Source: an uncultured Eubacterium sp. (GTDB lineage Bacteria > Bacillota > Clostridia > Lachnospirales > Lachnospiraceae). From it: a stretch of DNA of 64,000 bases. The stretch is taken from the NCBI GenBank assembly GCA_947642745.1, contig CANRTU010000001.1:1-64000 (forward strand). The letters run 5' to 3'. Numbering within the stretch: position 1 is the stretch's first letter; the number at the start of each line of letters is the position of its first letter. This document shows positions 29,833 through 46,175 of the stretch, in pieces. Both the position numbers and the translations under genes were made by a program. The notes beneath the pieces are model-generated. The model made no database searches and was not told where the DNA came from. It saw only the letters and a program-made list of their open reading frames with translations.

Positions 29833-30231
29833 TTACGCCTGTTCCCGCAGCTGCTTTTCCAGAAATTCCGCCGCATCCCTGACACAGTCGTTGCATTCCC
29901 GCAGCACGACGCCGGTTTCAATCCCTTTTAAATCCCTGCAGGTGACCGAACCGTTGCGTTCTTTAAACGCCGTCATAATACTGCGGATATCTTGTACGGT
30001 TTTCTGGCGCTCCTTATTAGCCATACCAAGCACCAGACCCGCACCGGAAATGGCGCCGCAGCTGCCTTCCAGCGTACCAAGGCCGGTGCCAAAGGCCTGC
30101 GCCAGATGTTTCATCGTTTCTTCATCTATTCCTGCGTAGTCGCAGTATGTGCAGGCCACTGCCTGCGCACAGTTGTAACCGCACTGCTTTTTCTGTACGG
30201 CCTGTTCTGTTCTTTGTTCCATTATTTCCAC
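29833..30231 (-). CDS. C-GCAxxG-C-C family (putative redox) protein
   Basis: CGYNCAQAVACTYCDYAG...GTGLGTLEGSCGAISGAGLVLG. Confidence 0.9.
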   Translation of the reverse strand: MEIMEQRTEQAVQKKQCGYNCAQAVACTYCDYAGIDEETMKHLAQAFGTGLGTLEGSCGAISGAGLVLGMANKERQKTVQDIRSIMTAFKERNGSVTCRDLKGIETGVVLRECNDCVRDAAEFLEKQLREQA

Positions 30232-30290
30232 CTCACAGATTCATTTTTCCAAAGCCCCGCCGCTGTTTGTGCCGCTTGCGTAACGCCGGA

Positions 30291-30947
30291 CTATCTGGTT
30301 CCAAAAATCCGGTCGCCTGCGTCTCCCAGTCCCGGGCAGATATAAGCGTCCTCATTGAGACAACGGTCCAGACAGCCGCAGTAAATCTGTACGTCCGGAT
30401 GCGCCCGGTGCAGCCGCTCCACCCCTTCCGGCGCTGCGATCACGCACAGGAATTTGATTTTCTTTCCGCCCTTTGCCTTTATAAAATCCACGGCCGCCAC
30501 CGCAGAACCGCCGGTGGCCAGCATCGGGTCCAGCACAGCGATGGTACGCTCTTCAATAGGCGTAGGCAGTTTGCAGTAATATTCTTCCGGTTCGTGGGTC
30601 TCATGATCCCTGTAAAGGCCGATATGGCCTACCTTCGCACTGGGCACCAGTGTCAGAATCCCGTTTACCATTCCAAGCCCCGCCCGCAGAATCGGCACCA
30701 CGGCCAGCTTCTTTCCGCTGATTACCGGTGACTGGCAGGTTTCCAGCGGCGTCTTAATTTCCATCATTTCCACCGGCAGATCACGAAACGCCTCGTATCC
30801 TATGAAAACCGCAATCTCCTCCACCAGTTTGCGGAATTCGTTTGTACCTGTCCGGTAATCCCGCAGCATGGAAATCTTATGCTGGAGTAATGGATGACTG
30901 ATAAAATGTGCGTTTTCTATGTGTTTCATATGTTCTGTATGTTCCAT
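30291..30947 (-). CDS. upp: Uracil phosphoribosyltransferase
   Basis: [59 protein letters not shown]; start reassigned from 31070 to [10 protein letters not shown]. Confidence 0.95.
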
Positions 30948-31029
30948 GTTTTCTCCCCTTCCCGGAGCATGTCCGGAAAACGCCTGACTGACATTCCCCT
31001 GCGCTCCTTTTGTATATGTCGTATGATTT

Positions 31030-31040
31030 CCCCCCCCCCC
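31030..31040. repeat. Homopolymer C(11) (G11 on the upp strand)
   Basis: gtatgattt-ccccccccccc-gtaaac, about 83 bp upstream of the upp start. Confidence 0.9.
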
Positions 31041-31237
31041 GTAAACAACGGGCACACGGTTTTGCGCCACGCCATTGTTACCGTCATCCGGCGTATGTCC
31101 GGCGCGCCTGCCCCAATACCCTGCCGGATCGAAAATCCCGGGCGTTTATCCCCCTGTCTGCCGTGGGAATAAGATCACGTTTACAATTTTATCATACAAG
31201 GAATCACATTTCAACCAGATACCGGCAGCCGGTTCTG

Positions 31238-32932
31238 TCATGATGTTTCTGCCAGCGCCACTTTGCACTGCTTTTTATAAACCGCAATGGCATATTTCAG
31301 AATATGCTCCACGCCATCATCAGCCAGATCTTCTTCATATCTGGTAAAAGCAATCTGTCTGAGCGCCTTTTCACATGCCAGATCCAGATTTCCATCCTGT
31401 GCGTATTTTACCTCAATAATAATTCCCATGTCTCCCGTATCCGGTTCCACCAGGATATCCGCATATCCTTCCCCCATTTCACGGTTTGACGAAATACCCC
31501 ACCGTTCCTTTACTCCCAGAATTCCAACTAAAATCCCATGATAAAAATTTTCTTTCATGTCCTTTCTTATGGCAGTGTCACGGATACTGATACTCTTTCG
31601 TAAATATGCTGTAAAAATTTTCTCCGCATTTTGTGCGTCCCCGCTTTTTAGTGCGTCGCAGAAACGGTTCAGCGTTACCCCGTCTGCCCGTACATTCTCT
31701 TTAAAATATTCCATAACCTGGGTCACAAACACGTCCCGGATCTCCATATTGGGAATCGCCAGCTTCATCCGCCTTCCATTTATTTCTCCCCGTCTGGTCA
31801 GATAGCCGGTTGTATAAAGAAGACTCCACATATGGTCAATCGTCTGATAAATCTCCGGATAAGTGAGTTCCTGATGAATTTCTTTTGTAATAGCTTCTCC
31901 CGCAATCAGGCGCTCTATTTCCCTTTTTGTGGCGGCGTTTGTCGATTCCTGGATGAACCGTCTGACCGCTTCGTTACTGCCTGTATTGATCCAGTAATTT
32001 TCCGGCTCCGGACAGGGCTCACTTTTCACTCTGTCACAATAATTAATTACATCCCATGGACAATATATCCCCACATTTCCAAACTGATAGCCATCGTACC
32101 ATCTCTTTACCACATCGTAATGACCAGCCGCATCGTAATAGTCCAGAAGATCCTTCACTTCTTTGTCTGTAAATCCAAAATATTTATCAAAACGCCCGTC
32201 TGAGACAGTCAGGACTTTCAGATGATTCAGTCCGGTAAAAATACTTTCCTTTGAAATCCGCAGACAGCCGGTCAGCACAGCAAATTTCAGACTACTGTTT
32301 GTCTTGAGCACGCTTCCCAGCAGATTGCGGATCAGAGAAATCATCTGCTCATAATATCCATTTGAAAATGCCTTTGCCAGGGGCACATCATATTCATCCA
32401 TTAATACAATCACTTTTGTATTATAATGCTTTTCCAGCAGGGCTGACAGCATTTTCAGACTGCCGCAGAACACGGCTTCATTCATGTTCTCATCCAGAAG
32501 ACAGTTGTACTGCGCCTTGTCATAGTCATTGAGCCTTTCACTTTGTAAAAGAAAATAGTATCTGGCAGCCACTTCCATAATGACCCGTACCGCCATCTGA
32601 AATGCCGTCTGAAAAGTCCGCGCGTCAATCCCTTTCAGCGATACCGTTACCACCGGATATTTTCCCATATAATTTTCACAAAGCGCCCGCTCATTTGAAA
32701 TTTCCAGTCCGTCAAAAATACTTTTATCCCCCTGAATGGAAAAAAAATTTTCCAGCATACTTATATTGAGTGATTTTCCAAATCTCCGTGGGCGGGTAAA
32801 AAGATTCACCGCTCCCCAGTTATAGAGGAATTCCGCAATAAAACCCGTTTTATCCACATAGTAAAAGTCTTCTTTTACGATATCTTCAAAACTTTCAATT
32901 CCTACCGGAAGTTTCTTTTTATACATCTTCAT
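31238..32932 (-). CDS. AAA-ATPase-like plus PD-(D/E)XK nuclease-like protein (DUF1703 type)
   Basis: LPVGIESFEDIVKEDFYYVDKTGFIAEFL, VNLFTRPRRFGKSLNISMLENFF; C-term DILVEPDTGDMGIIIEVKYAQD. Confidence 0.93.
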   Translation of the reverse strand: MKMYKKKLPVGIESFEDIVKEDFYYVDKTGFIAEFLYNWGAVNLFTRPRRFGKSLNISMLENFFSIQGDKSIFDGLEISNERALCENYMGKYPVVTVSLKGIDARTFQTAFQMAVRVIMEVAARYYFLLQSERLNDYDKAQYNCLLDENMNEAVFCGSLKMLSALLEKHYNTKVIVLMDEYDVPLAKAFSNGYYEQMISLIRNLLGSVLKTNSSLKFAVLTGCLRISKESIFTGLNHLKVLTVSDGRFDKYFGFTDKEVKDLLDYYDAAGHYDVVKRWYDGYQFGNVGIYCPWDVINYCDRVKSEPCPEPENYWINTGSNEAVRRFIQESTNAATKREIERLIAGEAITKEIHQELTYPEIYQTIDHMWSLLYTTGYLTRRGEINGRRMKLAIPNMEIRDVFVTQVMEYFKENVRADGVTLNRFCDALKSGDAQNAEKIFTAYLRKSISIRDTAIRKDMKENFYHGILVGILGVKERWGISSNREMGEGYADILVEPDTGDMGIIIEVKYAQDGNLDLACEKALRQIAFTRYEEDLADDGVEHILKYAIAVYKKQCKVALAETS

Positions 32933-33193
32933 TTCCTGTCACACTCCTGTCCGCCAGCCCGTATATCCATATTTCTGGTATACATAACCTGATCCGCTTA
33001 TGTTCTGTCCGTCCTGCCTGCCTGTGTTCTGGCCCTATTATATGATTTCCCGCAGACCGGGTCAACTCTTCAGACAGTTTGCGGCGCTTAAAAACGCCAG
33101 ATATAACAGGCCCGTATCGTTTTGCGCCGCAAAAACCGCCGGAAAAGGCCCCGGACAGCCGTATCCCGGGAAATACAGGCCGCATCCGGCGCA

Positions 33194-33253
33194 TTGACAC
33201 CATACGCTTCACCGGATATAATAATGTCAGACAGACAGCCATAACTGTCTGAC
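33194..33253 (+). promoter_or_regulatory. Sigma-A-type promoter with adjacent palindromic operator or hairpin
   Basis: TTGACA (33194)-17 bp-TATAAT (33217); GTCAGACAG-N10-CTGTCTGAC at 33226-33253. Confidence 0.8.
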
Positions 33254-33302
33254 AGATCCTACAAAAGAAACGAAACAGAACGTAATAAAGAAGGAAACGA
33301 TT

Positions 33303-34211
33303 ATGAACAGACCATCTGATACCAGCACTGCCCCAACCCTCATCTCTGTCTGTGCCGGAGACAAAACCGGCATTGTCTGCTGCTCCAACGGACTGCCCGC
33401 CAGAAACAGAACACTGCTGCAACGGTTATCCGGGCTGCTGGAACAGGCCGGACTGATTCCGGTTTTCAGCCCTTATATTTATGCGAAGGACGGTGTATTC
33501 AGCGGCAGCGCCAGGGACCGGGCCCGGGCGCTGATGGATTTTTACCAGGACCCGGCTGTGACTTCCATCTTCGATGTTTCCGGCGGGGACATCGCCAATG
33601 AAATCCTGCCCTGGCTGGATTTTGATATCATTGCGTCCCATCCGAAGCTGTTTGCCGGCTACAGCGATCTGACCACTGTCATCAACGCCATTTATACAAA
33701 AACCGGACAGCCCTGCCTGCTCTATCAGCTGAAAAACCTGTTGTCTGAAAAAGAAAGCTGGCAGGCCGCTTTTTTTGACACGCTGCTGCATCACAAAACA
33801 CCCCTGTCCGTTTTCCCATACATCTTTGTACAGGGCGACAGTATGGAAGGCATTGTAACCGGCGGCAATATCCGCTGTCTGCTGAAACTGGCAGGAACGG
33901 AATATTTCCCGGACTTAAACCGGAAACTGCTGCTACTGGAAGCTTTTCACGGAGGCGTCCCACAGATGACCACCTATCTGAGCCAGCTGCAAATGATGGG
34001 CGCCTTTTCCAGGGTGAACGGAATTATCCTGGGCACGTTTACAGAAATGGAACAGGAACAGTACCAGCCGGACATCCTTTCACTGGTACAGGCATATGCC
34101 GGCAGCCTGCCGGTGATAAAGACGCCGAAAATCGGCCACGGCACAGATTCCTGCGCTATTATGATCGGGTCATACCAGAAATTCCGGCGCCAGGCGGATA
34201 CTTCCATATGA
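33303..34211 (+). CDS. LD-carboxypeptidase, S66 family (MccF/LdcA-like)
   Basis: SGSARDRARALMDFYQDPAVTSIFDVSGGDIANEILPWLDFD, FAGYSDLTTVINAIYTKTG. Confidence 0.9.
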   Translation: MNRPSDTSTAPTLISVCAGDKTGIVCCSNGLPARNRTLLQRLSGLLEQAGLIPVFSPYIYAKDGVFSGSARDRARALMDFYQDPAVTSIFDVSGGDIANEILPWLDFDIIASHPKLFAGYSDLTTVINAIYTKTGQPCLLYQLKNLLSEKESWQAAFFDTLLHHKTPLSVFPYIFVQGDSMEGIVTGGNIRCLLKLAGTEYFPDLNRKLLLLEAFHGGVPQMTTYLSQLQMMGAFSRVNGIILGTFTEMEQEQYQPDILSLVQAYAGSLPVIKTPKIGHGTDSCAIMIGSYQKFRRQADTSI

Positions 34212-34331
34212 AATATGTAACATTTTTATAACCGGATGAATATTTCTTCCTGATTGATACATACTAAAAGACAGCGCCAGCATTTTATGAAAATGCTGAA
34301 ACTATATAATTTCAGAAAGGAGACGGAAACT

Positions 34332-34508
34332 ATGAATCCGGATGAAGTCATTTGCAGCTGTCTTGATATTACAAAAGGCATGATCGAAGAAGCGGTAAAG
34401 TCCGGCGCAAAGACGCTGGAAGACGTACAGGAAATCAACAGTGTAGGTACCATCTGCGGCTCCTGCATCGAAGATGTGGAAAACCTGATTGCGGAATTAA
34501 CAAAATAA
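34332..34508 (+). CDS. BFD-like [2Fe-2S]-binding protein
   Basis: VICSCLDITKGMIEEAV...GTICGSCIEDVENLI (CxC...CxxC); start reassigned from 34254. Confidence 0.88.
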   Translation: MNPDEVICSCLDITKGMIEEAVKSGAKTLEDVQEINSVGTICGSCIEDVENLIAELTK

Positions 34509-34633
34509 AAAGTATCCGGCGAAGCCGGATACCCCGCCTGCGGCGGGCTGCCTCAGGCAGTATTTTCCCTTCCGGCGCATGGCGTTCCTGCCCGGAGGGC
34601 TTTATTGCTTTACTGGCGCTTTTTCCTGTATGG
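34507..34633 (+). repeat. Family A repeat, long copy; overlaps the stop of the BFD-like gene
   Basis: aTAAAAAGTATCCGGCgaaGCCGGATACcccgcctgcggcgggctgcctcaggcagtattttcccttccggcgcatggcgttcctgcccggagggcttt. Confidence 0.85.
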
Positions 34634-34635
34634 CG

Positions 34636-34690
34636 AAAAGTATCCGGCACTGCCGGATACCCCGCCTGCGGCGGGCTGCCTCAGGCAGCT
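34636..34690 (+). repeat. Family A repeat, short copy in tandem with the preceding one
   Basis: aaaagtatccggcactgccggataccccgcctgcggcgggctgcctcaggcagct. Confidence 0.85.
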
Positions 34691-34895
34691 TTTTCATTTC
34701 CGCCTTATAGCGGCCACATACACATATCCCTGTTCCATCACCGCCGCCATTTGTATACCAGCCATGGGTACCGCCGCATTTCCAGCACCGGTTCTTTTTC
34801 CCACAGTAAATAATCGCCTGCCAGTTTTTGCAGCGGAACATACATGGATAGATCTGCGACGGTATATTAATTTATTTTACCATAAAGGAGTACAT

Positions 34896-35624
34896 ATGAA
34901 ATACAAGGACTACTATAATGACGCTTATATTGTGGATCTTTCCCAAAAAATAAAAACTGTTATGCCGGACTTTGACGAAGAATATTTTACCCGTACGCTC
35001 ACCGGCCGGCTGGATGACAGGGAACTATCCGCCCGGCTGGACTTTATCGTGGACGCCATGCAGCAAAGCATGAGCGGCAGTTATGAAGAACATCTCGAAG
35101 CTTTTTCCAGAATGTACGGCCCCGTGCTGACAGGACCGGAAGGAATGTTTCAATACGGCTGGTGGCTCTGGCCCGTCGGCAGATATGTGGAACGCCGGGG
35201 AAATGATAACTGGCAGCTGTCATTATCTTTTCTGAAAGAACTGACCAGAAGATTTACCGGTGAATTCGCCATCCGGCCTTTACTAAAAGCCCATCCGCAG
35301 GAGGTAATGGACGAGCTGATCCAGTGGACCGCTGACGAAAATGTACATGTCCGCAGGCTTGCCAGCGAAGGTGTCAGAATCCGCCTGCCCTGGTCCCGGA
35401 AGCTGTACACCGCCCTGGATGAATTCGAACGATATACCGTTATTCTCACAAACCTGAAAGATGACCCAGAGAAATTCGTCCAGAAAAGCGTGGGCAATAA
35501 TCTGAACGACCTGTATAAAGAAGCTCCGGACAAAGCGGATTTTATTATTTCCCAGTGGGAAAAATCCGGACAAAGCAGGGCACAGGAATGGATTATTAAA
35601 CATGGCAGGCGCAATCAGAAATAA
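34896..35624 (+). CDS. DNA alkylation repair (HEAT-like) family protein
   Basis: ATG at 34896 after AAAGGAG; VHVRRLASEGVRIRLPWSRKL, FVQKSVGNNLNDLYKEAPDK. Confidence 0.85.
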   Translation: MKYKDYYNDAYIVDLSQKIKTVMPDFDEEYFTRTLTGRLDDRELSARLDFIVDAMQQSMSGSYEEHLEAFSRMYGPVLTGPEGMFQYGWWLWPVGRYVERRGNDNWQLSLSFLKELTRRFTGEFAIRPLLKAHPQEVMDELIQWTADENVHVRRLASEGVRIRLPWSRKLYTALDEFERYTVILTNLKDDPEKFVQKSVGNNLNDLYKEAPDKADFIISQWEKSGQSRAQEWIIKHGRRNQK

Positions 35625-35631
35625 GCCACGG

Positions 35632-37284
35632 CTATTCCTCAAAGTAATAACCGGCAGCCTCCCTTACCGCCTTACTGCTTCCCCTGGCAGCCACGGATAA
35701 AGGAAAATACGAAAGCAGCAGACGGTCGTTGGCGGAATTTCCAAAAACCGCCGTCTCTTTACGGCCATATCCCATTTTTTCACATATCCGCAGCACGCCC
35801 TGTAATTTTCCAGCGCCTTTTTTTGTAATCTGGATACAGCTCTCTTCCCGCAGAATCTGGCAGGAATCCGGAATCCCGAAAATACCCCGCAGCCGTTCTT
35901 CCTCTCCGCCGGCAGCTGACAGGACCTGGGACCTGCCCCGGTCCGGTATTTCTTCATTGACATATTTGTCACCGGCCTTTTCACAGGCATTTTGATCCGT
36001 CTTTTGTTTATCCGCTTTTTTCCACTGCCTGCGGCCTGCCAGCGTGACTTTATACACACAGTCTCCCTTTTTATACACATGTACGGAATAACCATGCCGG
36101 CGGGCTTTTTCCTCCGCCTGCGAAATCCAGGACGTCTCCAGTGGATACGCTTCATCCATGCCGCTTTCTCCCCGGATGATACACCTGGCGCCGCCGGCAA
36201 ATACACCGCCTGCCAGCAGCGGCCAGATTTCCCTGATTTTTATCCTGGCGGCTTCCGGCGGCAGGGAAGTCGCCGCATACAGCCTGGTATAACGGGCCAG
36301 ACGGGTCAGCTGGCGCACATACTGCTTTGGTATCTGCTTGTGCCCCTCCGGAACAAGCGTTCCGTCTATATCCATAAAAACCGCTTTGGGATATACCGGA
36401 ATGCGGAACGCCGGATAAGGCTGAAAAAAGAGCAGACGCTCCTGTCTGCGGTTGCAGTAGGCCAGATAACAGCCGCATCTTTTTCTGCCACAGGCACGAT
36501 CCTCCGCCGGTGGCTGCCCGTCTGTGGCGGATTCTCCACAATCCGGATCATAAAAATTTCCCACTACCGCTCTGGAAAGATTGCAGCGGCGCATGGCGCC
36601 ATCCGCCTCCACAAACCGGTTGTCCCCGCAGAGCCTGCCGTCCGCCCTGTGATGCATAAGCTCCAGGTCAAAATACGGATCAATCTGTGTAAAAGCGTAT
36701 ATTTCCTCCTGCGTATAACGCCGCCCGGGACCGTCCATTTTATTAATCCAGAAATATACATCCTCCGGCAGCTCTCTGCGCGCCTGCCAGAGGACGTCCA
36801 GATGATCCGGCACGCCCACGGCGCCGGCGCAGTATAAAACGCCCCGGTCTGACAGCCTGCGGCAGGTGGCCGTAAACTGCTCCACACTGGTCATTTCCGG
36901 ATGAAAAGTTCCCCACAGCCGCAGTTTTTTCAGATCCCCGCCATGTCTGTGATAAATATCCAGCATCTGATCCACAGGAAAACTAAAGTTGCTCTGGGCG
37001 CCGGCGGCTTCCACCCGTGGATTACCACTAAGAGCCCCGAGCGCTTCCCAGTAATAGTCATGGATCAGCGCTTCCCCATAAGGCGCTATCAGTACGGCTC
37101 CCCCCAGTCCTCTCTTCTGAAACTGTCTGGTAAACCGCAACAGCGCCTCTTTGTCCTGCCGCAGCTGCCGCAGCGTTTCCTGCTTTTTGGAAAAAGGACA
37201 GTAGCCGCACGTATAATTGCAGCTTTTCAGGCTTCCCCGGTAATACCATTGCCGTTTTCTATCCATATCAGTCATGTTCCGCAC
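35632..37284 (-). CDS. STM4011-family radical SAM protein fused to a C-terminal HAD-IIB (Cof-like) phosphatase
   Basis: N-term YRGSLKSCNYTCGYCPFSK (CxxxCxxC); C-term AVFMDIDGTLVPEG and AVFGNSANDRLLLSYFPLSVAA. Confidence 0.88.
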   Translation of the reverse strand: MRNMTDMDRKRQWYYRGSLKSCNYTCGYCPFSKKQETLRQLRQDKEALLRFTRQFQKRGLGGAVLIAPYGEALIHDYYWEALGALSGNPRVEAAGAQSNFSFPVDQMLDIYHRHGGDLKKLRLWGTFHPEMTSVEQFTATCRRLSDRGVLYCAGAVGVPDHLDVLWQARRELPEDVYFWINKMDGPGRRYTQEEIYAFTQIDPYFDLELMHHRADGRLCGDNRFVEADGAMRRCNLSRAVVGNFYDPDCGESATDGQPPAEDRACGRKRCGCYLAYCNRRQERLLFFQPYPAFRIPVYPKAVFMDIDGTLVPEGHKQIPKQYVRQLTRLARYTRLYAATSLPPEAARIKIREIWPLLAGGVFAGGARCIIRGESGMDEAYPLETSWISQAEEKARRHGYSVHVYKKGDCVYKVTLAGRRQWKKADKQKTDQNACEKAGDKYVNEEIPDRGRSQVLSAAGGEEERLRGIFGIPDSCQILREESCIQITKKGAGKLQGVLRICEKMGYGRKETAVFGNSANDRLLLSYFPLSVAARGSSKAVREAAGYYFEE

Positions 37285-38617
37285 CTGACTGGAAGAAGCG
37301 TTCTGACTTTTCCCTGACCCCTTGGGATATCAGCTGCGGGCCGAGATAATCGGACAGGGACATTCCTTCTTCTGTCAGAGTCACAAATTCGTCTGAGATT
37401 GTCACATACCCCGCCGTTTCCCACTGCCGCATCTGTGAAAAATCCTCCGTTACTTCTGTTGCGAAATGTGCCAGATACTCTTTTCTGCTGATTCCCCTGC
37501 CGTAGAGAATCTGGCGGATCGCATATCTTCGTTTCATCTCATCCGCTGTCAGCAGAAATCCATGAGTGATCCGCAGATAATCCCGCTGTTTCATATAGTC
37601 AGCCAGTACAGACAGACACCGGCTCTGTTTAACCGCATAAGGCGTACAGTAATGCAGATCTCCAATATAACTTCTGCCTCCGCAGCCCACTGATAATGTA
37701 TCGGAAAACCCGCAGGATGCATAAGGCGGCTCCATCTGCGGACCAGTACCCGGATTTCCGCCGCCGGACGCTTTGTTCTGACGCCCTTCAAAGGTCCGTA
37801 CAAACCGGCGCATGGAATACTGCCGGTAGCCTGCCTCCCTCAGCAGGCTGCGCATATGAAAATACATTTCCCACATATGCTCCGCCCGTTCCATTCCCTG
37901 CCGGTACAGATATGTACCAGGCTGTATATACAACGGATAGACGAACAGTTCCTCCGGCTCATATTCCAGCGCCTGCTTCAGGGAATCCGCAAGACTCTCC
38001 CTGGTCTGGCCCCTGACGCCGTAAATCAGATCCACGTTCAGACACCCGAAGTCCATATCCCGCAGCAGCCGGAGCGCCCTTCTGGCTGACGATGCCGTAT
38101 GAAACCGTCCCATTGCCGCCAGTTCCTCTTCCCGGAAACTCTGGACGCCGATGCTGACGCGGCTGACCCCGGCCTGTTTTAAAAGCGCCAGCTTTTCCGC
38201 TGTCGTCTGGTCCGGGGAAGTCTCCACCACAATTCCCCTGCCCGGGGAGCGGAATCCGAAATATGTTTCCGCCAGCCCGAATACCCGCTCCAGCTGCTCC
38301 GGGGGAAGCAGCAGCGGCGTTCCCCCGCCCAGCGTCAGATCCTGAAAACAGACCTCCTCTGGCAGAATCCGCGCCAGCTGCTGCGACTGGCGTTCCATGG
38401 CGTCCACATAGTCTCTCATCATCTGTCCGGACTGCCCAGCTACCGAAAACAGATTGCAGTAACCGCATTTATGCTGGCAGAATGGAATATGGAAATACAG
38501 GCCGCACTCCCGCAGCTGGTAAACGTAATCCCGCAGATGCACCTGATACAGCGGCCCGTATGCCGTTTTGTGCGGATAACTGTACATATACTGTATATAT
38601 GGCTGTGTAACCTGCAT
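37268..38617 (-). CDS. STM4012-family radical SAM protein (HemN/HemW-like)
   Basis: PYIQYMYSYPHKTAYGPL N-term; LYFHIPFCQHKCGYCNLF (CxxxCxxC); LTLGGGTPLLL. Confidence 0.9.
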   Translation of the reverse strand: MQVTQPYIQYMYSYPHKTAYGPLYQVHLRDYVYQLRECGLYFHIPFCQHKCGYCNLFSVAGQSGQMMRDYVDAMERQSQQLARILPEEVCFQDLTLGGGTPLLLPPEQLERVFGLAETYFGFRSPGRGIVVETSPDQTTAEKLALLKQAGVSRVSIGVQSFREEELAAMGRFHTASSARRALRLLRDMDFGCLNVDLIYGVRGQTRESLADSLKQALEYEPEELFVYPLYIQPGTYLYRQGMERAEHMWEMYFHMRSLLREAGYRQYSMRRFVRTFEGRQNKASGGGNPGTGPQMEPPYASCGFSDTLSVGCGGRSYIGDLHYCTPYAVKQSRCLSVLADYMKQRDYLRITHGFLLTADEMKRRYAIRQILYGRGISRKEYLAHFATEVTEDFSQMRQWETAGYVTISDEFVTLTEEGMSLSDYLGPQLISQGVREKSERFFQSGAEHD

Positions 38618-38686
38618 ATTGCCTCCTTATTTATGCCCTGCAGCGCCAGATTGTATCTTTTAAATTCATGCATGAAAAGCAGTTTT

Positions 38687-39544
38687 CTATAACAGAAAAT
38701 GCTTGTATGGCACGGTATATACCAGCGGATGGCCAATGCCGTGATACCACATGCCATCTTCCCCGAAACAGGTGCCATGATCCGAACAGCAGATCACAAA
38801 CACCGGCCCCAGCAGTTTAAACGCGTGGAACAGCCGTCCCAGCTGAATATCCACGGCCCGGAGGGCGGCTCCCTGGGACTGGACGCTGTCCCGCCTGGCT
38901 CCCTGTACATAATAATGCGTGGGATAATGGAGCGCCGTAAAGTTGATATACATCATAAGAAGCTGCCCCGGGGCCACATCTTCCAGCTTTCTGACCGCAC
39001 AGTCCACCTGGTGTTCCGGAGCGTCCGCCACCCTGCAGCCAAAGGACGGATGCCAGTCACTGTGCATAAAATACGAAGGCAGCACGCTGCCTGTTGCCGT
39101 GCGTTTGTCAAAAAAACTGACGCCGCCGATACAGTATGTATCATACCCTTCCCGCTCCAGCCCCTGTATCCAGGTAGTTTCCCGGAACGTCCAGGCTCCC
39201 CGGGGCGCTTTGCGTCCCATTCCCGTATCCTCTGAAAAAAACAGCGTTTCCCGCTCCTTCATACTTGCTGTGCCTTCATCCACAGGCAGAAATCCGGCAA
39301 ACATGGCCTGATGGGACGGATAGGTAAAGCTGCCGGGCGCCTGGCATTTCCTCCAGGCCCCATAGCGGTTTAAAACAGGAGTCCCGCCATTTTCCTGTTG
39401 TGCCACAGCTACATCATAGCGCAGCGCATCCAGACAGATAAATAAAATATGGGCATTTCCTACTACCCGGTTCATGTCCGGGGTCTGCCGGGGTCTTTGT
39501 TTCATCTGATTTGTCATAACTGTTTTATCATTCATATTTGTCAT
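38687..39544 (-). CDS. STM4013/SEN3800-family hydrolase (sulfatase/alkaline phosphatase superfamily)
   Basis: ILFICLDALRYDVAVAQQENGGTPVLNRYG, FTYPSHQAMFAGFLP, FVICCSDHGTCFGEDGMWYHGIGHP. Confidence 0.9.
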   Translation of the reverse strand: MTNMNDKTVMTNQMKQRPRQTPDMNRVVGNAHILFICLDALRYDVAVAQQENGGTPVLNRYGAWRKCQAPGSFTYPSHQAMFAGFLPVDEGTASMKERETLFFSEDTGMGRKAPRGAWTFRETTWIQGLEREGYDTYCIGGVSFFDKRTATGSVLPSYFMHSDWHPSFGCRVADAPEHQVDCAVRKLEDVAPGQLLMMYINFTALHYPTHYYVQGARRDSVQSQGAALRAVDIQLGRLFHAFKLLGPVFVICCSDHGTCFGEDGMWYHGIGHPLVYTVPYKHFLL

Positions 39545-39582
39545 ATTTAATGTCCGTCAGGGGCAGCGCCGGTTTTTATAAA

Positions 39583-40626
39583 TTATCCCCGGTGCATATT
39601 AGAAATTGCCATATAATACGCCTGCTCACGGTAGATCCGGTTTTCATGAAAGATATCCTGGTAAATCAGGTCCCCCTGCCCGTTCATCTCGATAACCAGC
39701 GGCCGCGGCGTGTTTTTTTCCAGTAAAATATCCAGCCCCGCCATGGACAGTCCTTCAAACGGCTCCATGGCGCTGGCACACAGCCTGTCTATCTCACGCA
39801 TCGTCTGCGGGGACAGATCCAGCGCCCCCGCATCCAGCGCCCGGTTATTCAGATGAAGATTCGTCACCGGGCCGTCGCCGCAGCGTGCCACCATATGGGC
39901 TATATGCCCAAACTGGTATACAACCCGCAAATCAAAGCTTTTTCCATGAACACGGGCTTTCGGATGCCAGCGCTCCAGCACACATTCCAGGGACAGCAGC
40001 CTTGTCAGCAGGTTTTGAATATCCTCCCGGTCCCGCATCTGGTAAAGCCGTTTCGTATTAATCAGCCGCCGCTCTTCCAGCCGGCAGGACGTATACAGCA
40101 CCATGTCCCCCCGGACCGGATGAAGCCGCAGCGCCGCTGTGCCGGCCGCCCCGGAAAAATATCTGGGTTTTATAAATACTCCATAACAGCGGTTCTCCCG
40201 CATCCAGTCCAATAATTGTGCCACACTGGCAGGCTCACTGTCAGACATCCGGGTCACCGCAATGCCCTGTTCCAGCAGACACTGTTTACTCTTTTTTTTG
40301 TCCAGCAGCCGGATCAGGGCCCCGGGCGTATTTAAAAACTGACAGTCCGACTCTTCCAGTTTCTCTAACAGCCGGATATAAGCCTCCAGCTCTGTGCGCA
40401 TCTGTTCCAGACAGACCGTGGAAAATACCGGCGGGTCAATTTTGACCGGCGTTCCCCGCAGTCTGCCGGCATCCGGTTCCCGCCTAAAGTCAGCCCAGGG
40501 AATCAGCCGCATGGAAATTCCCTGCTGGCGTGCGGCCTGCTCCATATATACCGTCCGTCTGGACGATGCTTCCCCGATCAGATACAGCGCCGGCTCTGCT
40601 GGCGCCAGTCCGCCCCCTGACTTCAC
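39583..40626 (-). CDS. STM4014-family protein (ATP-grasp fold), GTG start
   Basis: GVFIKPRYFSGAAGTAALR, SMAGLDILLEKNTPRPLVIEMNGQGDL; GTG start in TAGTG overlap. Confidence 0.88.
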   Translation of the reverse strand: MKSGGGLAPAEPALYLIGEASSRRTVYMEQAARQQGISMRLIPWADFRREPDAGRLRGTPVKIDPPVFSTVCLEQMRTELEAYIRLLEKLEESDCQFLNTPGALIRLLDKKKSKQCLLEQGIAVTRMSDSEPASVAQLLDWMRENRCYGVFIKPRYFSGAAGTAALRLHPVRGDMVLYTSCRLEERRLINTKRLYQMRDREDIQNLLTRLLSLECVLERWHPKARVHGKSFDLRVVYQFGHIAHMVARCGDGPVTNLHLNNRALDAGALDLSPQTMREIDRLCASAMEPFEGLSMAGLDILLEKNTPRPLVIEMNGQGDLIYQDIFHENRIYREQAYYMAISNMHRG

Positions 40627-41489
40627 TATTCTGTCAGCAACGGATTATAATAGACGATTCCGCCATATGAATCCGCCTCCTGCTGGTCCTCCACGTTAAC
40701 CGTAATACCGGAAAGCCCGGAGAGCTTCTCCATCATTTCATCCGACAGAAAATGGTACTCCAGGTTCAGTTCACGGATACCGGGCAGCCGCGGCAGCCGG
40801 TCCAGAAGCAGCTGTCCTCCTTCGTCTGTCAGACTGCCCATGGACAGATCCAGCGTGGTGATCTGACTGATATATTTACTGTCCAGCACCGCCTGCGTAA
40901 TCTCATTCTGAATCTCACTGTCAGTCAGCCCCAGATACGTCAGTTTTGGAAAGTCTGATTTCTCCAGCAGCTCTTTAATCGTGGATATATCCCCGTCAAA
41001 CCCGTAATCTTCCACACCGATATATAACAGCAGTGTTTCCAGATTTGGAAGCTTTGCCTCCTGCACAGACCGGATTACATCCTTACCAAGCCCGCCGCAG
41101 ATAATTTCCAGATGCCGCAGGTTTTCGTGGTTCACCGTGCCAAGATTCAGGCCGCTGCTGCCTTTGATTACCAGTTTTTCCAGCTGGGGCATGGCCTCCC
41201 ACAGTCTGGAGTAATCCGCCTGTATAATCCAGGATACTTCGCATTCCTCATAGTCCATATCCCCGATAAACAGACTTTTGATATGGGCAAATCTTTCTTT
41301 ATCCGCCACAATGCCGTCCACCAGCGGCTGTGAGCTGCCATCATCCCAGGCTTCTCCCCAGCATCCGATCACAATCTCCTCCAGATCAGGCAGTTCGGGA
41401 TCTGCCTGGATTTCCTGAAACAGCGTAACCGCATCTTTATGATTCTGCCAGTCCTCATACGTATAAGAAAACACTTTACTCCTGTACAT
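40626..41489 (-). CDS. STM4015-family protein (leucine-rich-repeat-like)
   Basis: LFIGDMDYEECEVSWIIQADYSRLWEAMPQLEKLVIKGS and LRR-like strands; last codon overlaps the STM4014-like start. Confidence 0.85.
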   Translation of the reverse strand: MYRSKVFSYTYEDWQNHKDAVTLFQEIQADPELPDLEEIVIGCWGEAWDDGSSQPLVDGIVADKERFAHIKSLFIGDMDYEECEVSWIIQADYSRLWEAMPQLEKLVIKGSSGLNLGTVNHENLRHLEIICGGLGKDVIRSVQEAKLPNLETLLLYIGVEDYGFDGDISTIKELLEKSDFPKLTYLGLTDSEIQNEITQAVLDSKYISQITTLDLSMGSLTDEGGQLLLDRLPRLPGIRELNLEYHFLSDEMMEKLSGLSGITVNVEDQQEADSYGGIVYYNPLLTE

Positions 41490-41610
41490 CTTTCTTTCCT
41501 CCCTGACTATCCCCGTTTCGAGCGGGTATCTGAAAATTTATTGTTACAACGATCATACCATAAGTTTACGATAATTTCCATGAAATTATAAAAAAGTATC
41601 CGGCCAGAAA

Positions 41611-43017
41611 TCAGGATTCCACAATCCGGCCGCTGCCCGGCCCTTCTGTCTGTCCCGCATCTGACTGCCCGTCAGATACTGCCGTTTTTCTGATACCCTG
41701 GTCTTTTGCGTACATCACGATACAAATAACCGCTAAAACTGTTTCCACAGCCGGCTGTGCGGCAATGACGCCATTTAACTGCCACAAACTGTTCAGGATA
41801 AACACTGCCGGAATAAATAATATTACATTTCTCATAATCGTAACAAGCAGGGATTTAACCGCTGCGCCCAGTGCCTGAAAATAACCTGTTATCATATTGA
41901 TAACTCCCAGCATTGGCGCTGACAGACCTAATACACTGATAAAATATCCCGCCTGGTGTATCAGAGATTCATCGTGAAGAAATACGCCTGCCAGCTGTTT
42001 CCCAAATAAGCAGAATACAGCTAAAAAGACCGCTCCCAGAATGATTCCATAAATGGTCGTTGTTTTCACTACCTGTGACATCCGGTCTCTTTTCCCGGCG
42101 CCATAATAATACCCTGCCAGTGGGGCGACGCACTGCGAAAGTCCAACTGGCAGCATAACCGGCACCATATCCACTTTATAGGCGATACCATGCGACGCCA
42201 CCGCATCGGAACCATAAATCCCGATAAAGTTGTTAAGAACGATATTGGAAACACTCAGCAGCGCAGTAATAAGCGCACCCGGTATCCCGATACCCACCAC
42301 GCTGCCAGTCATTTTTTTATGCGGGGCAAACTGTCTGACTGAAAGTGATATCAGCTGGTTTCCTTTTCTTTCCGCCTGAATCATACAGACCAGATAATAA
42401 ACCGAAGAACAGAAAAAACCAAAGGATGTGGCAAGTGCGGCGCCGGCTGTTCCCAGATCCAGCAATACGATAAAAATAAAATCAAAGACAATATTGATGG
42501 AATTGCCAGGGGCCAGCCCGATGGTGCTTTCCTTAATAAAGCCAAGTGACCGGAAAAGATGAACCAGTCCATTCGAAAGAATGATAAAGGGCGCTCCAGG
42601 GAAAATATATTTCAGATAATCGTAAGTATAAGCCATGTTTTCCGCATCGGCGCCTGATACAACCGCAACCGGTTTCATAAACAGGACACCGGCAAGCAGA
42701 ATCACAATTCCGGCGGCCACCATTGCGTACAGACAAAAATTCAGCGTACGGCTGACCTCTTTATTTTTATTTTCTCCTAAGAGCCTTGCAATCACACTGT
42801 TTCCGCCCATGCCGAAAACAGAAGCAACAGACATAATAATCAGAAGAACCGGCGTACAAAGCGTAACCGCGGCGATCATCGCAGGCTCTTTTGTCAGAGA
42901 AACAAAAAAAGTATCCGCAATGTTATAAATCAGGGTCGTAAGCTGCCCCAGCATGGCAGGCAGCCCCATACGCATAATCGCTTTTGAAATGTTTGTTTCT
43001 TCAAATACCGTGGTCAT
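41611..43017 (-). CDS. MATE family efflux transporter
   Basis: RMGLPAMLGQLTTLIYNIADTFFVSLTKEPAMIAAV; 12-TM pattern. Confidence 0.95.
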   Translation of the reverse strand: MTTVFEETNISKAIMRMGLPAMLGQLTTLIYNIADTFFVSLTKEPAMIAAVTLCTPVLLIIMSVASVFGMGGNSVIARLLGENKNKEVSRTLNFCLYAMVAAGIVILLAGVLFMKPVAVVSGADAENMAYTYDYLKYIFPGAPFIILSNGLVHLFRSLGFIKESTIGLAPGNSINIVFDFIFIVLLDLGTAGAALATSFGFFCSSVYYLVCMIQAERKGNQLISLSVRQFAPHKKMTGSVVGIGIPGALITALLSVSNIVLNNFIGIYGSDAVASHGIAYKVDMVPVMLPVGLSQCVAPLAGYYYGAGKRDRMSQVVKTTTIYGIILGAVFLAVFCLFGKQLAGVFLHDESLIHQAGYFISVLGLSAPMLGVINMITGYFQALGAAVKSLLVTIMRNVILFIPAVFILNSLWQLNGVIAAQPAVETVLAVICIVMYAKDQGIRKTAVSDGQSDAGQTEGPGSGRIVES

Positions 43018-43114
43018 ATGACAAAATCCTCCCTATCTGTTTCTTGTATTTTTTATCAGTGTACGCTATCATAAACAGAAAAACCAGGACATATGTCCTG
43101 GTGGAGGTGTTTTT

Positions 43115-43762
43115 ATGAAAAGATTTTATGAAAAATCACTCATTGAAAGCTGTCTGAAGCAGATAGAATATGAATCCGCAATGAGCAGTTTACAGAACCA
43201 TTTATTCATGGCACAATACGAAAAAGGCGAATTTGTTACCATGCCGTCACAAAAAGAACATTTATTCCAGATTATCATTCAGGGTTCTGTGAGTATTTAT
43301 TTTATCAGAGACGACGGATCCGTATACTCTCTCGCAAACAGCCAGAAGAACGATATCCTGGGGGAAATGGAAATTTTTCATCACCAGACGGGTAACGTCT
43401 ATGCCGAAGCGGACAATGACGTCGTCTGTCTTGCCCTGTCTGTCGAAACCGTCAGGGATGCGCTGATGGAAAACTGCCAGTTTTTGCGGCTGATCTGTGA
43501 ATCATTAACACAGAAAATGGAATCCATCACAACCACCGACGCTGCTCCCGCATGTTTAAAACAGCGTGTTCTGACTTACATGAAATATAAATGCGCCAAT
43601 GGAGAACTGAAAGGACTGCAGCAGGCCGCATTTCACTTAAATTGCAGCGCCCGCCAGCTCCAGCGCATCCTTAATCAGTATCAGGCTGATGGAATTATCA
43701 TCAAAACCGGAAAAGGAGCTTTTAAACTAAACGCGGCATATCCTGACTTACATAAAATATAA
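43115..43762 (+). CDS. Crp/Fnr family transcriptional regulator
   Basis: cNMP-binding-like N-term; C-term HTH GLQQAAFHLNCSARQLQRILNQYQADGIIIKTGKGAFKL; divergent from MATE. Confidence 0.93.
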   Translation: MKRFYEKSLIESCLKQIEYESAMSSLQNHLFMAQYEKGEFVTMPSQKEHLFQIIIQGSVSIYFIRDDGSVYSLANSQKNDILGEMEIFHHQTGNVYAEADNDVVCLALSVETVRDALMENCQFLRLICESLTQKMESITTTDAAPACLKQRVLTYMKYKCANGELKGLQQAAFHLNCSARQLQRILNQYQADGIIIKTGKGAFKLNAAYPDLHKI

Positions 43763-43833
43763 ATGCGCCAGCAAAGGGCCGGAAGGACTGCGGCAGGCCG
43801 CATTTTCCTTAAATCGCGGCGCCCGCCGGCCCT
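43743..43833 (+). repeat. Partial tandem duplication of the Crp HTH-coding segment (copy of 43571-43661)
   Basis: Reads LTYIKYKCASKGPEGLRQAAFSLNRGARR versus LTYMKYKCANGELKGLQQAAFHLNCSARQ. Confidence 0.85.
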
Positions 43834-43901
43834 TTCTCTCATTTCACCGGATCAGATAACATATAACTATACAGCATTCATCGCAGATCCGGCTGGCAAT
43901 G

Positions 43902-44582
43902 CTAAAACGTTTCATAGGAAACCAGTTCATCCATGGGAATTCTTGTGTGTAAATGGCGTTCCGGGTCCGCCGCTTCCCCATCCGGATACCCGGCCGCAAG
44001 AATATTGACCGGTTCCAGATGATCCGGCAGCCCGAACTCCCTGCTGATTACATCCGGCCTGAAATGGCAGATCCAGACAGAACCTGGTGTATTGTATCGT
44101 TGATATCTGTCAAAACTCCGCTGAACAGGTTTTCAGCGGCAAGGCGCCTGAACGAGGCGATGCGGTGGCATCGTTGAGTGAAGGCAACGCAGTCCGATGG
44201 AAGCCTGAGCAGGGAGGTTTGGCTGAGTATCAATGATACAATACACTAGTCCTTCTTCCGCCGCCTGCAGCATCATATGGTCTGTCAGTATGGAGGCGTC
44301 TATATCCGTAGTCTTCTTTTTATCGTACGGGCGTACCCATGCCTTTTCATGGTCAGCGCAGACGATAATCGCAAGCGGTGCGCCGTAAAGGTCCGCTGCT
44401 TTCCCAATCTTTCCAAGCCCCTCCCTGCTCTGGACTACAATCAGACGGACAGGCTGCAGATTAGCCGCTGTAGGCGCCGCATGGGCAGCTTCCAGAATCT
44501 TTTCCAGTTTTTCTTCCTCTACTTTTCTGTCCCTGTAACCGCGGACAGAATAACGTTTCTTAGCAATTTCAATAAAATCCAT
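43902..44582 (-). pseudogene. Nitroreductase family protein interrupted by a MITE-like insertion
   Basis: MDFIEIAKKRYSVRGYRDRKVEE...HMMLQAAEEGL | insertion | GSVWICHFRPDVISREFGLPDHLEPVNILAAGYPDGEAADPERHLHTRIPMDELVSYETF*. Confidence 0.9.
44087..44246. mobile_element. 160-bp MITE-like element, TIR GTGTATTGTATCRTTGATAY
   Basis: gtgtattgtatcgttgatat ... agtatcaatgatacaatacac; flanking sequence reconstitutes an intact nitroreductase frame. Confidence 0.88.
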
Positions 44583-44840
44583 AATATTAAATCCTCTCTT
44601 TCTGTCAGATACGGAACATAGGAATGAACCGTTGTCCCCATTTTAGCAGGACGCAGAAATTCCGCAAGAATGCACTTTTGAGGTACATACTTCCCCAAAA
44701 GATAGTTATGGAAAACCGGGTTTCTGAAAAAATAGTTCTGAAAATTAATTCCGAAAGGAATCGTTCTGAAAAAATACCCAGAAGAAAATTTATGAAATAA
44801 CCTGTTCCATCCGTATCGTTTTTGCGGTATCATATACCCG

Positions 44841-45064
44841 GAGCGTACATGGAAAATGCTTTCTGTCAGATATACCCTGAAGGGCATGATATACCCTGAA
44901 GGGCATAATACGGGAGATTTGCACCAGATGAAGGGCGCATACCCGGGGAACACGCCGCATCGTGCCCTCTCTGGTATAACAGGCTATGTAACCTGAATCT
45001 GGTGTAAATCTCACACGAACCTGAGAATGCGGATAGCGGAAATAATTTTTCAGAGACGCTCTGG
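44841..45064. repeat. Family B MITE-like element (copy 2)
   Basis: gagcgtacatggaaaatgctttctgtcagat ... aataatttttcagagacgctctgg; two internal ataccctgaagggcatgat units. Confidence 0.75.
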
Positions 45065-45087
45065 CATAAAGAAAGGTAAGGATAACT

Positions 45088-45366
45088 ATGTATACTGAAA
45101 AAGAAAACGAAGAACTGGTTCAGGCTCTTGTAAAAGCTGCCAGCGCAGCATTTTTGTCTTGAAAAGAAACAACAAAAGAGCATTTTTATTATTATGTATT
45201 CGTATTCGACGAGGGATTACATCCATATATCTCAGCATGGTCATATGAAGCGCTGGAAAAGTCCATTGCCAGACAGCAGATACCAGAGGAAGAGTCAGGC
45301 TGGTGGAAATGGAGTTGTCCGGATTCTCCCTACGCCGTTTACGGATTAGTTTACAGAGGTTATTGA
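45088..45366 (+). pseudogene. DUF4303-like remnant with an in-frame TGA
   Basis: MYTEKENEELVQALVKAASAAFLS*KETTKEHFYYYVFVFDEGLHPYISAWSYEALEKSIARQQIPEEESGWWKWSCPDSPYAVYGLVYRGY*. Confidence 0.55.
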
Positions 45367-45497
45367 ATCAGAACATATGAAATAAAAAACGGATGAAATC
45401 TGCCGCGGTTTTTAATCCTGTATGGCAGACAGTTTTTTATTTCTCCCTTGAACTATCAGAGCTGATTGTGTATAGTATCATTATAACACACGATTGA

Positions 45498-45575
45498 AAC
45501 GTATCTGGCAAAACCGGATACCGTGCCTGCGCCGGAACACTTTTCTTCCGGAGACACGCTTTCCTGTTAAATAAA
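45498..45575 (+). repeat. Family A repeat, degenerate copy
   Basis: aacgtatctggcaaaaccggataccgtgcctgcgccggaacacttttcttccgg. Confidence 0.5.
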
Positions 45576-45740
45576 ATCATCTGGCAGCAGGCTGCCCCCG
45601 GAAAATCCCGGCGCGGGACAGTTAAAACATCTGTACAGCCGCCGGACAAAAGATCCCTGTCAGTATCCATTGAAAAAGAATTACGAAAAATATCAAAACT
45701 GCCGGCATTGTATACAGCCAGCGACAGACGGAGACCGAAC

Positions 45741-46175
45741 ATGCAGATTTCAAGCCGCTTTACCATTGCCGTCCATGTACTCATATGCATAGAGACATTT
45801 AAAAATAACTATAAAGTAACCAGTGACTTCCTTGCCTCCAGCGTAAATGTCAACCCTGTTGTAATCCGCCGGCTGCTGCAACAGTTAAAAAAAGCCGGCA
45901 TTGTAAAAGTAATACGGGGCAGTGGCGGAACAGATGTGCAAAAGCCCCTGGATGAAATTTCACTGCTGGACATATATAACGCTGTAGCGTGTGTAGAAAA
46001 AGGCCAGCTGTTTCATTTTCATGAAAATCCAAACGGGAACTGCCCTGTAGGAAAAAATATCCATTCCATTCTGGATACCAGACTTGAAAGCATTCAGAAA
46101 GCCATGGAAAAAGAAATGGCTTCCATAACCCTGCAGGACATTGTAACCGACGCCGGAAAACTGACCAGTCTTTAA
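45741..46175 (+). CDS. Rrf2 family transcriptional regulator
   Basis: MQISSRFTIAVHVLICIETFKNNYKVTSDFLASSVNVNPVVIRRLLQQLKKAGIVKVIRGSGG. Confidence 0.92.
   Translation: MQISSRFTIAVHVLICIETFKNNYKVTSDFLASSVNVNPVVIRRLLQQLKKAGIVKVIRGSGGTDVQKPLDEISLLDIYNAVACVEKGQLFHFHENPNGNCPVGKNIHSILDTRLESIQKAMEKEMASITLQDIVTDAGKLTSL

Follow-up and report, generated by a model that had tools for sequence, protein, structure and literature searches.

Five consecutive ORFs occupy positions 35632-41489 on the minus strand of the window (the whole 64,000-nucleotide stretch of DNA analysed here), in the order STM4015-STM4014-STM4013-STM4012-STM4011. In our HMM search of the window proteins, all five exceeded the curated NCBIfam cut-offs, with their genes adjacent: STM4015 (40626-41489, 287 aa; NF038076, 325.5 bits, cut-off 275), STM4014 (39583-40626, 347 aa; NF038074, 289.7 bits, cut-off 175), STM4013 (38687-39544, 285 aa; NF038075, 345.4 bits, cut-off 250), STM4012 (37268-38617, 449 aa; NF006067, 494.9 bits, cut-off 380) and STM4011 (35632-37284, 550 aa; NF038073, 280.8 bits, cut-off 200). 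The preliminary description of this DNA had named the same families in the same order and had suggested these models as a check; its ORF positions and family assignments held, but its gene list missed a HAD-IIB domain fused to STM4011. As it also noted, STM4015 and STM4014 overlap by 1 nt in TAGTG. The 17-nt overlap that it reported between STM4012 and STM4011 holds if STM4011 starts at GTG, but an alternative ATG at 37266 gives a 1-nt gap instead, and the start of many STM4011 homologues aligns with this ATG (alignment A4), which is therefore the better fit. Since the overlap exists for the GTG start only, the proposed translational coupling of these two genes is unproven. Upstream of STM4015, our promoter scan marked 41580-41552, although promoter-like matches exceed those in shuffled sequence only somewhat, and no Rfam match to a regulatory RNA was found within 30000-46000 of the window. 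Upstream on the same strand lies a MATE efflux gene (41611-43017). In Bacteroides, too, the cluster is followed by a MATE gene, but by our neighbourhood survey we rejected it as a conserved partner. On the plus strand downstream (33303-35624) are genes for an S66 LD-carboxypeptidase, a small protein that by eye resembles BFD-type [2Fe-2S] proteins and a DNA-alkylation-repair-like protein.

The cluster is real and widely conserved in bacteria, occurring in several phyla and including Salmonella and gut Lachnospiraceae. At loci with room on the contig, STM4015 adjoins STM4014 in 76 of 77 cases, STM4014 adjoins STM4013 in 69 of 74, STM4013 adjoins STM4012 in 64 of 70, and STM4012 adjoins STM4011 in all 65; therefore, the gene order is not due to chance. 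Nearly all breaks fall between STM4014 and STM4013 or between STM4013 and STM4012, and one contig (L047) has STM4015 copies with no STM4014 adjoining. Natural fusions of STM4014 with STM4013 (L077) and of STM4013 with STM4012 (L047) further tie the cluster enzymes together. The Salmonella cluster (L015) has the same five families above cut-off in the same order. On a Bacteroides finegoldii plasmid (L017, 8001-8394), STM4013 and STM4012 are present as fragments only.

Co-occurrence in other genomes, on which the preliminary description had staked its proposal, was also found. Of 61 genomes, 12 have STM4015, STM4014, STM4013 and STM4011 above their cut-offs, and these 12 are identical for all four families. 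STM4012 exceeds its cut-off in 11 of the 12 and is broken in the remaining one (G004) into two pieces that score 377 and 121 bits. Linkage is not needed for this pattern: four genomes (G003, G004, G005 and G010; seen in the flanks of L045, L063, L048 and L070) carry the cluster genes at two or three separate places and retain all of them, with STM4015 and STM4014 remaining together, and in G006 the genes lie on different contigs. Since 11 of the 12 positive genomes belong to one genus, these counts are not independent; the co-occurrence argues strongly for functional linkage inside the clade but carries less weight as independent evidence. G004 and Eubacterium plexicaudatum ASF492 (L063) have identical STM4015 proteins. 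Among 5426 E. coli genomes, 97 gave a match, none of it across most of the query; the ten matches listed cover about 3% of the query and lie in HAD genes. The invariant sixth gene or short precursor envisaged earlier did not appear in our neighbourhood survey of ORFs of at least 50 aa, nor did a conserved transporter: non-cluster neighbour families reach at most 15 loci, against 70-80 for the cluster families. The literature yielded two passing mentions only, with no functional paper and nothing under the STM4011-STM4015 family names, in a search that left out most subscription papers and preprints; within this coverage, the earlier statement that these families have no defined pathway stands.

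STM4015, our proposed carrier or substrate, consists of an LRR domain (approximately aa 8-263), an acidic linker and a conserved C-terminal tail. It is homologous to the solved structure PDB 2RA8 (phmmer 6.5e-71; profile 1.7e-105), a Bacteroides fragilis protein (Q64V53) that it resembles across the LRR domain, and is also related to RNase-inhibitor-type LRRs. The 2RA8 protein is uncharacterized, and our literature search gave no paper on the structure. The net charge of the window protein is -32, the median of our set of 108 distinct ORFs. Its tail, YYNPLLTE (40629-40652), ends in the glutamate that we propose as the attachment site (codon 40629-40631). Of the 108 ORFs, 107 have this glutamate as their last residue before the stop (100 of 101 in another set), and it is invariant in alignment A1; the ORFs represent six phyla, namely Bacillota, Pseudomonadota, Bacteroidota, Actinomycetota, Deinococcota and Cyanobacteriota. 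The sole exception (L093) has in-frame stops, beyond which ...ALLTE is still encoded. Only 8.4% of the other genes of the same loci end in Glu, and the other four cluster proteins follow no such rule. In Bacillota, Salmonella and Bacteroides, the tail reads approximately [YW]xx[AP]MLTE; the form in Actinomycetota, Deinococcota and Cyanobacteriota is approximately R[YF]xx[VL][GSA]E. Position -3 is constrained to L, V or I and position -2 to T, G, S or A, being Thr in Bacillota and mostly Gly, Ser or Ala elsewhere, and aromatic residues are frequent at -8 and -6. Since the constrained residues sit behind an acidic linker that is variable in length and poorly conserved, the tail is more than a mere piece of the fold. 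STM4015 copies duplicated within one cluster (L019, L020, L022, L042, L047 and L074) retain the tail, as does a copy without adjoining cluster genes (L114). The Bacteroides STM4015 (L017, 5942-7015) has an extra N-terminal stretch that by eye looks WGR-domain-like.

STM4014 (39583-40626) is assigned by NF038074 and by structure matches to the ATP-grasp ligases, where it is RimK/LysX/ArgX-like. When its AlphaFold model (pLDDT 91.5) was searched against the whole PDB, the best match was the ArgX-LysW complex (3vpb, E 1.2e-14), followed by DcsG, RimK and LysX; the RimK-RpsF complex and the graspetide ligases PsnB and MdnC are also among the top matches, and Ddl matches as well. We had proposed the likeness to LysW ahead of this search, which then ranked ArgX-LysW first. 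At the sequence level, Salmonella STM4014 matches the MptN (1.3e-8), RimK (7.8e-8) and LysX (5e-5) models, all below their cut-offs (for LysX, 22.5 bits against 275.6), and it also matches CofF. The E313-M-N315 motif (39682-39690) has two residues, E313 and N315, that do not vary among 60 sequences (A2) and that, by analogy with the ATP-grasp family, are likely Mg ligands. Most ligases of the RimK/LysX/ArgX group couple an amine with a carboxylate. Since RimK/LysX-type folds are also found in small-molecule enzymes (DcsG, Ddl, MptN, CofF), the fold of STM4014 does not fix its acceptor.

The two radical SAM proteins both carry a CX3CX2C motif. In the HemN-like STM4012 (37268-38617), its cysteines, at aa 47-54, are invariant (A5), and the PDB relatives are HemN (1olt, 7e-57) and NocN (9p2u, 2.4e-34). 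Neither HemW (176.1 against a cut-off of 205.4) nor HemN itself (142.3 against 324.95) is an acceptable assignment by score. STM4011 has its radical SAM domain at aa 13-284 (36433-37248; NF038073), with the motif at aa 22-29. Cysteines 219, 234, 265, 270 and 272 resemble those of auxiliary clusters, all eight cysteines are invariant (A6), and the protein matches the C-terminal part of SkfB weakly (E 0.0098); the five extra cysteines may bind an auxiliary FeS cluster of the SPASM/twitch kind. The remainder of the ORF (aa 302-546; 35647-36381) is a Cof-type HAD-IIB phosphatase domain (PF08282, 8e-16; TIGR00099, 1.2e-13) that retains the DxDGT motif in the window, whereas the second Asp is missing in some fused relatives (L054 and L065; A4). 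Of 66 genome-contig loci with room, 50 have this STM4011-HAD fusion, as does Bacteroides (L017), and 16 have no HAD in reach; the domain is therefore a frequent but optional part. In Salmonella (L015), in contrast to the window, the Cof-type HAD is a separate gene after STM4011.

STM4013 (38687-39544) belongs to the alkaline phosphatase superfamily, as judged from NF038075 and structure matches, and is a hydrolase or phosphotransferase. The top structural matches of its model (pLDDT 91.2) are the phosphoethanolamine transferases EptC, MCR-1 and EptA as well as arylsulfatases. Sulfatases are marked by a Cys or Ser nucleophile in a CxPxR-type formylglycine motif. No such motif was seen in alignment A3; in its place stands T74 (39323-39325) in FTYPSH, a Thr which by analogy with the superfamily is the presumed nucleophile and which is invariant in 55 sequences together with D39, D255, H256, H268 and H272. 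We therefore rejected a sulfatase assignment. The earlier label "sulfatase-like" holds for the fold but not for the nucleophile, and phosphoethanolamine transferases are also among the best structural matches. Distant STM4013-like genes adjoin genes for a GTP cyclohydrolase II-like and an HPr-kinase-like protein on the Ti plasmid pTi-SAKURA (L014, 8001-11143), and, on a plasmid of Streptomyces (L021, 5863-9904), occur with radical SAM, thymidylate-kinase-like, NUDIX and lasso-peptide B2 genes.

The conserved tail, the ligase fold, the five-gene co-occurrence, the gene order and the cysteine and metal-site motifs are direct observations, and from them we propose a mechanism. Because STM4015 has a near-invariant terminal Glu and travels with a ligase fold of the Glu-loading type, it is probably a carrier or substrate, and we lean slightly toward a model in which STM4014 joins an amine to this Glu, with the radical SAM enzymes and phosphatases acting afterwards. 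The acidic LRR body would serve as a docking platform, and the acidic linker would present the tail; STM4014 would activate a carboxylate of the terminal Glu with ATP and attach the amine, an amino acid or another. STM4012 and STM4011 could subsequently alter the tail or the group attached to it, while phosphate may be transferred or removed by STM4013, through its presumed Thr nucleophile, and by the HAD-IIB domain in clusters that have one. The ligation and its target are inferences, as are the succession of these steps and what becomes of the product, which may leave STM4015 or stay on it. Since the neighbourhood survey found no conserved release peptidase adjoining the cluster, modified STM4015 itself could be the product. 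The lack of such a peptidase also counts against the model, as do the STM4015 copies of L047 with no STM4014 adjoining. The preliminary description had suggested a pathway for peptide or protein modification in which the LRR protein is scaffold or substrate; this is partly supported, and it gains from the C-terminal Glu and the ArgX/LysX/RimK-like fold of STM4014.

If this model is right, the STM4015 system would resemble the amino-group carrier and pearlin systems, with an unrelated LRR protein as carrier. In amino-group carrier proteins, the gamma-carboxylate of the C-terminal Glu is the attachment point (PMC9303977). Like LysW, which works with LysX and ArgX, STM4015 is an acidic protein ending in Glu, and the fold of STM4014 is closest to ArgX bound to LysW. 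However, LysW is small, whereas STM4015 is an LRR protein of about 290 aa, far larger, of unrelated fold and without the small LysW-type globular domain; with its LRR fold and its relative 2RA8, it cannot be placed in the LysW family. The systems also differ in that the STM4011-STM4015 cluster has radical SAM and phosphatase enzymes and no release peptidase was seen, and STM4014 is below the LysX cut-off. In the pearlins (TglA/TglB and TmoA/TmoB), a building block is put on the C-terminus of a ribosomal carrier, like the role proposed for STM4015, and the tmo pathway includes a later step by a radical SAM enzyme (PMC9303977). Pearlins use a PEARL (LanB-like) ligase, whereas this cluster has an ATP-grasp protein; since no PEARL family member was found among the cluster proteins or the neighbours scanned, we rejected a pearlin pathway. 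With the tail and the ligase fold, an "unknown pathway" becomes a specific question: whether the terminal Glu of STM4015 is an attachment point and, if so, for what. Should the model hold, LRR proteins would join a small set of carriers for tethered biosynthesis, here with two radical SAM enzymes. It is possible, although we would put it somewhat below an even chance, that the cluster defines a new class of carrier-tethered biosynthesis in which an LRR protein holds an amine on its C-terminal Glu while radical SAM and phosphate enzymes build a metabolite or a protein-bound cofactor.

The alternative that survives best, which we nevertheless consider unlikely, is a RiPP-like or protein-cofactor maturation, in which the radical SAM enzymes would modify or crosslink the STM4015 tail, as PqqE does on PqqA, and STM4014 would form an intramolecular, graspetide-like bond or cap the terminus. 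The frequent aromatic residues at -8 and -6, the structural matches of STM4014 to PsnB and MdnC, and the auxiliary-cluster-like cysteines of STM4011 with its weak SkfB match are in favor of this. However, the variation at -2 by phylum means that there is no fixed hydroxyl partner, the terminal Glu alone is invariant, and neither a maturation protease nor a short precursor appeared in the neighbourhood survey (ORFs of at least 50 aa). RimK, PsnB and MdnC act with an ATP-grasp fold on protein or peptide carboxylates, like STM4014 in our model, but at 10-18% identity and with different partners. We regard it as improbable that STM4014 extends the C-terminus of STM4015 by glutamate(s) or by other amino acids and so sets a regulatory mark, the remaining enzymes forming a separate small-molecule pathway that the LRR protein regulates or scaffolds. 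RimK and the RimK-RpsF complex being among the best structural matches, the RimK match of the Salmonella protein and the separability of the STM4015-STM4014 pair from the other genes (L045, L048 and L063) agree with such tailing; the all-or-none co-occurrence with STM4013, STM4012 and STM4011, even when unlinked, argues instead for one pathway. About as improbable, in our judgement, is an ordinary small-molecule biosynthesis or salvage pathway with STM4015 merely as scaffold or inhibitor and its tail as a docking motif. LRR domains are generic binding modules, the small-molecule ligases Ddl and DcsG also match STM4014, and the distant STM4013 relatives adjoin GTP cyclohydrolase II (L014) or thymidylate-kinase-like and NUDIX genes (L021), yet a motif used for docking has no need to run right up to the stop codon, as the tail does in nearly every ORF. 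An anti-phage defence system was rejected, since PADLOC gave one weak match only (STM4012, 27.3 bits).

Of additional note, a DUF6745 gene and a gene for a protein of about 100 aa adjoin the cluster in Methylobacterium, Deinococcus and actinomycetes (L018, 4489-5814; L019, 10976-12273; L020, 3183-4647; L022, 11025-12334; L111, 14025-15508; L115, 13100-14499). YxPxxE[TA] is the C-terminal sequence of all six DUF6745 proteins, and the accompanying proteins of about 100 aa end in Asp.
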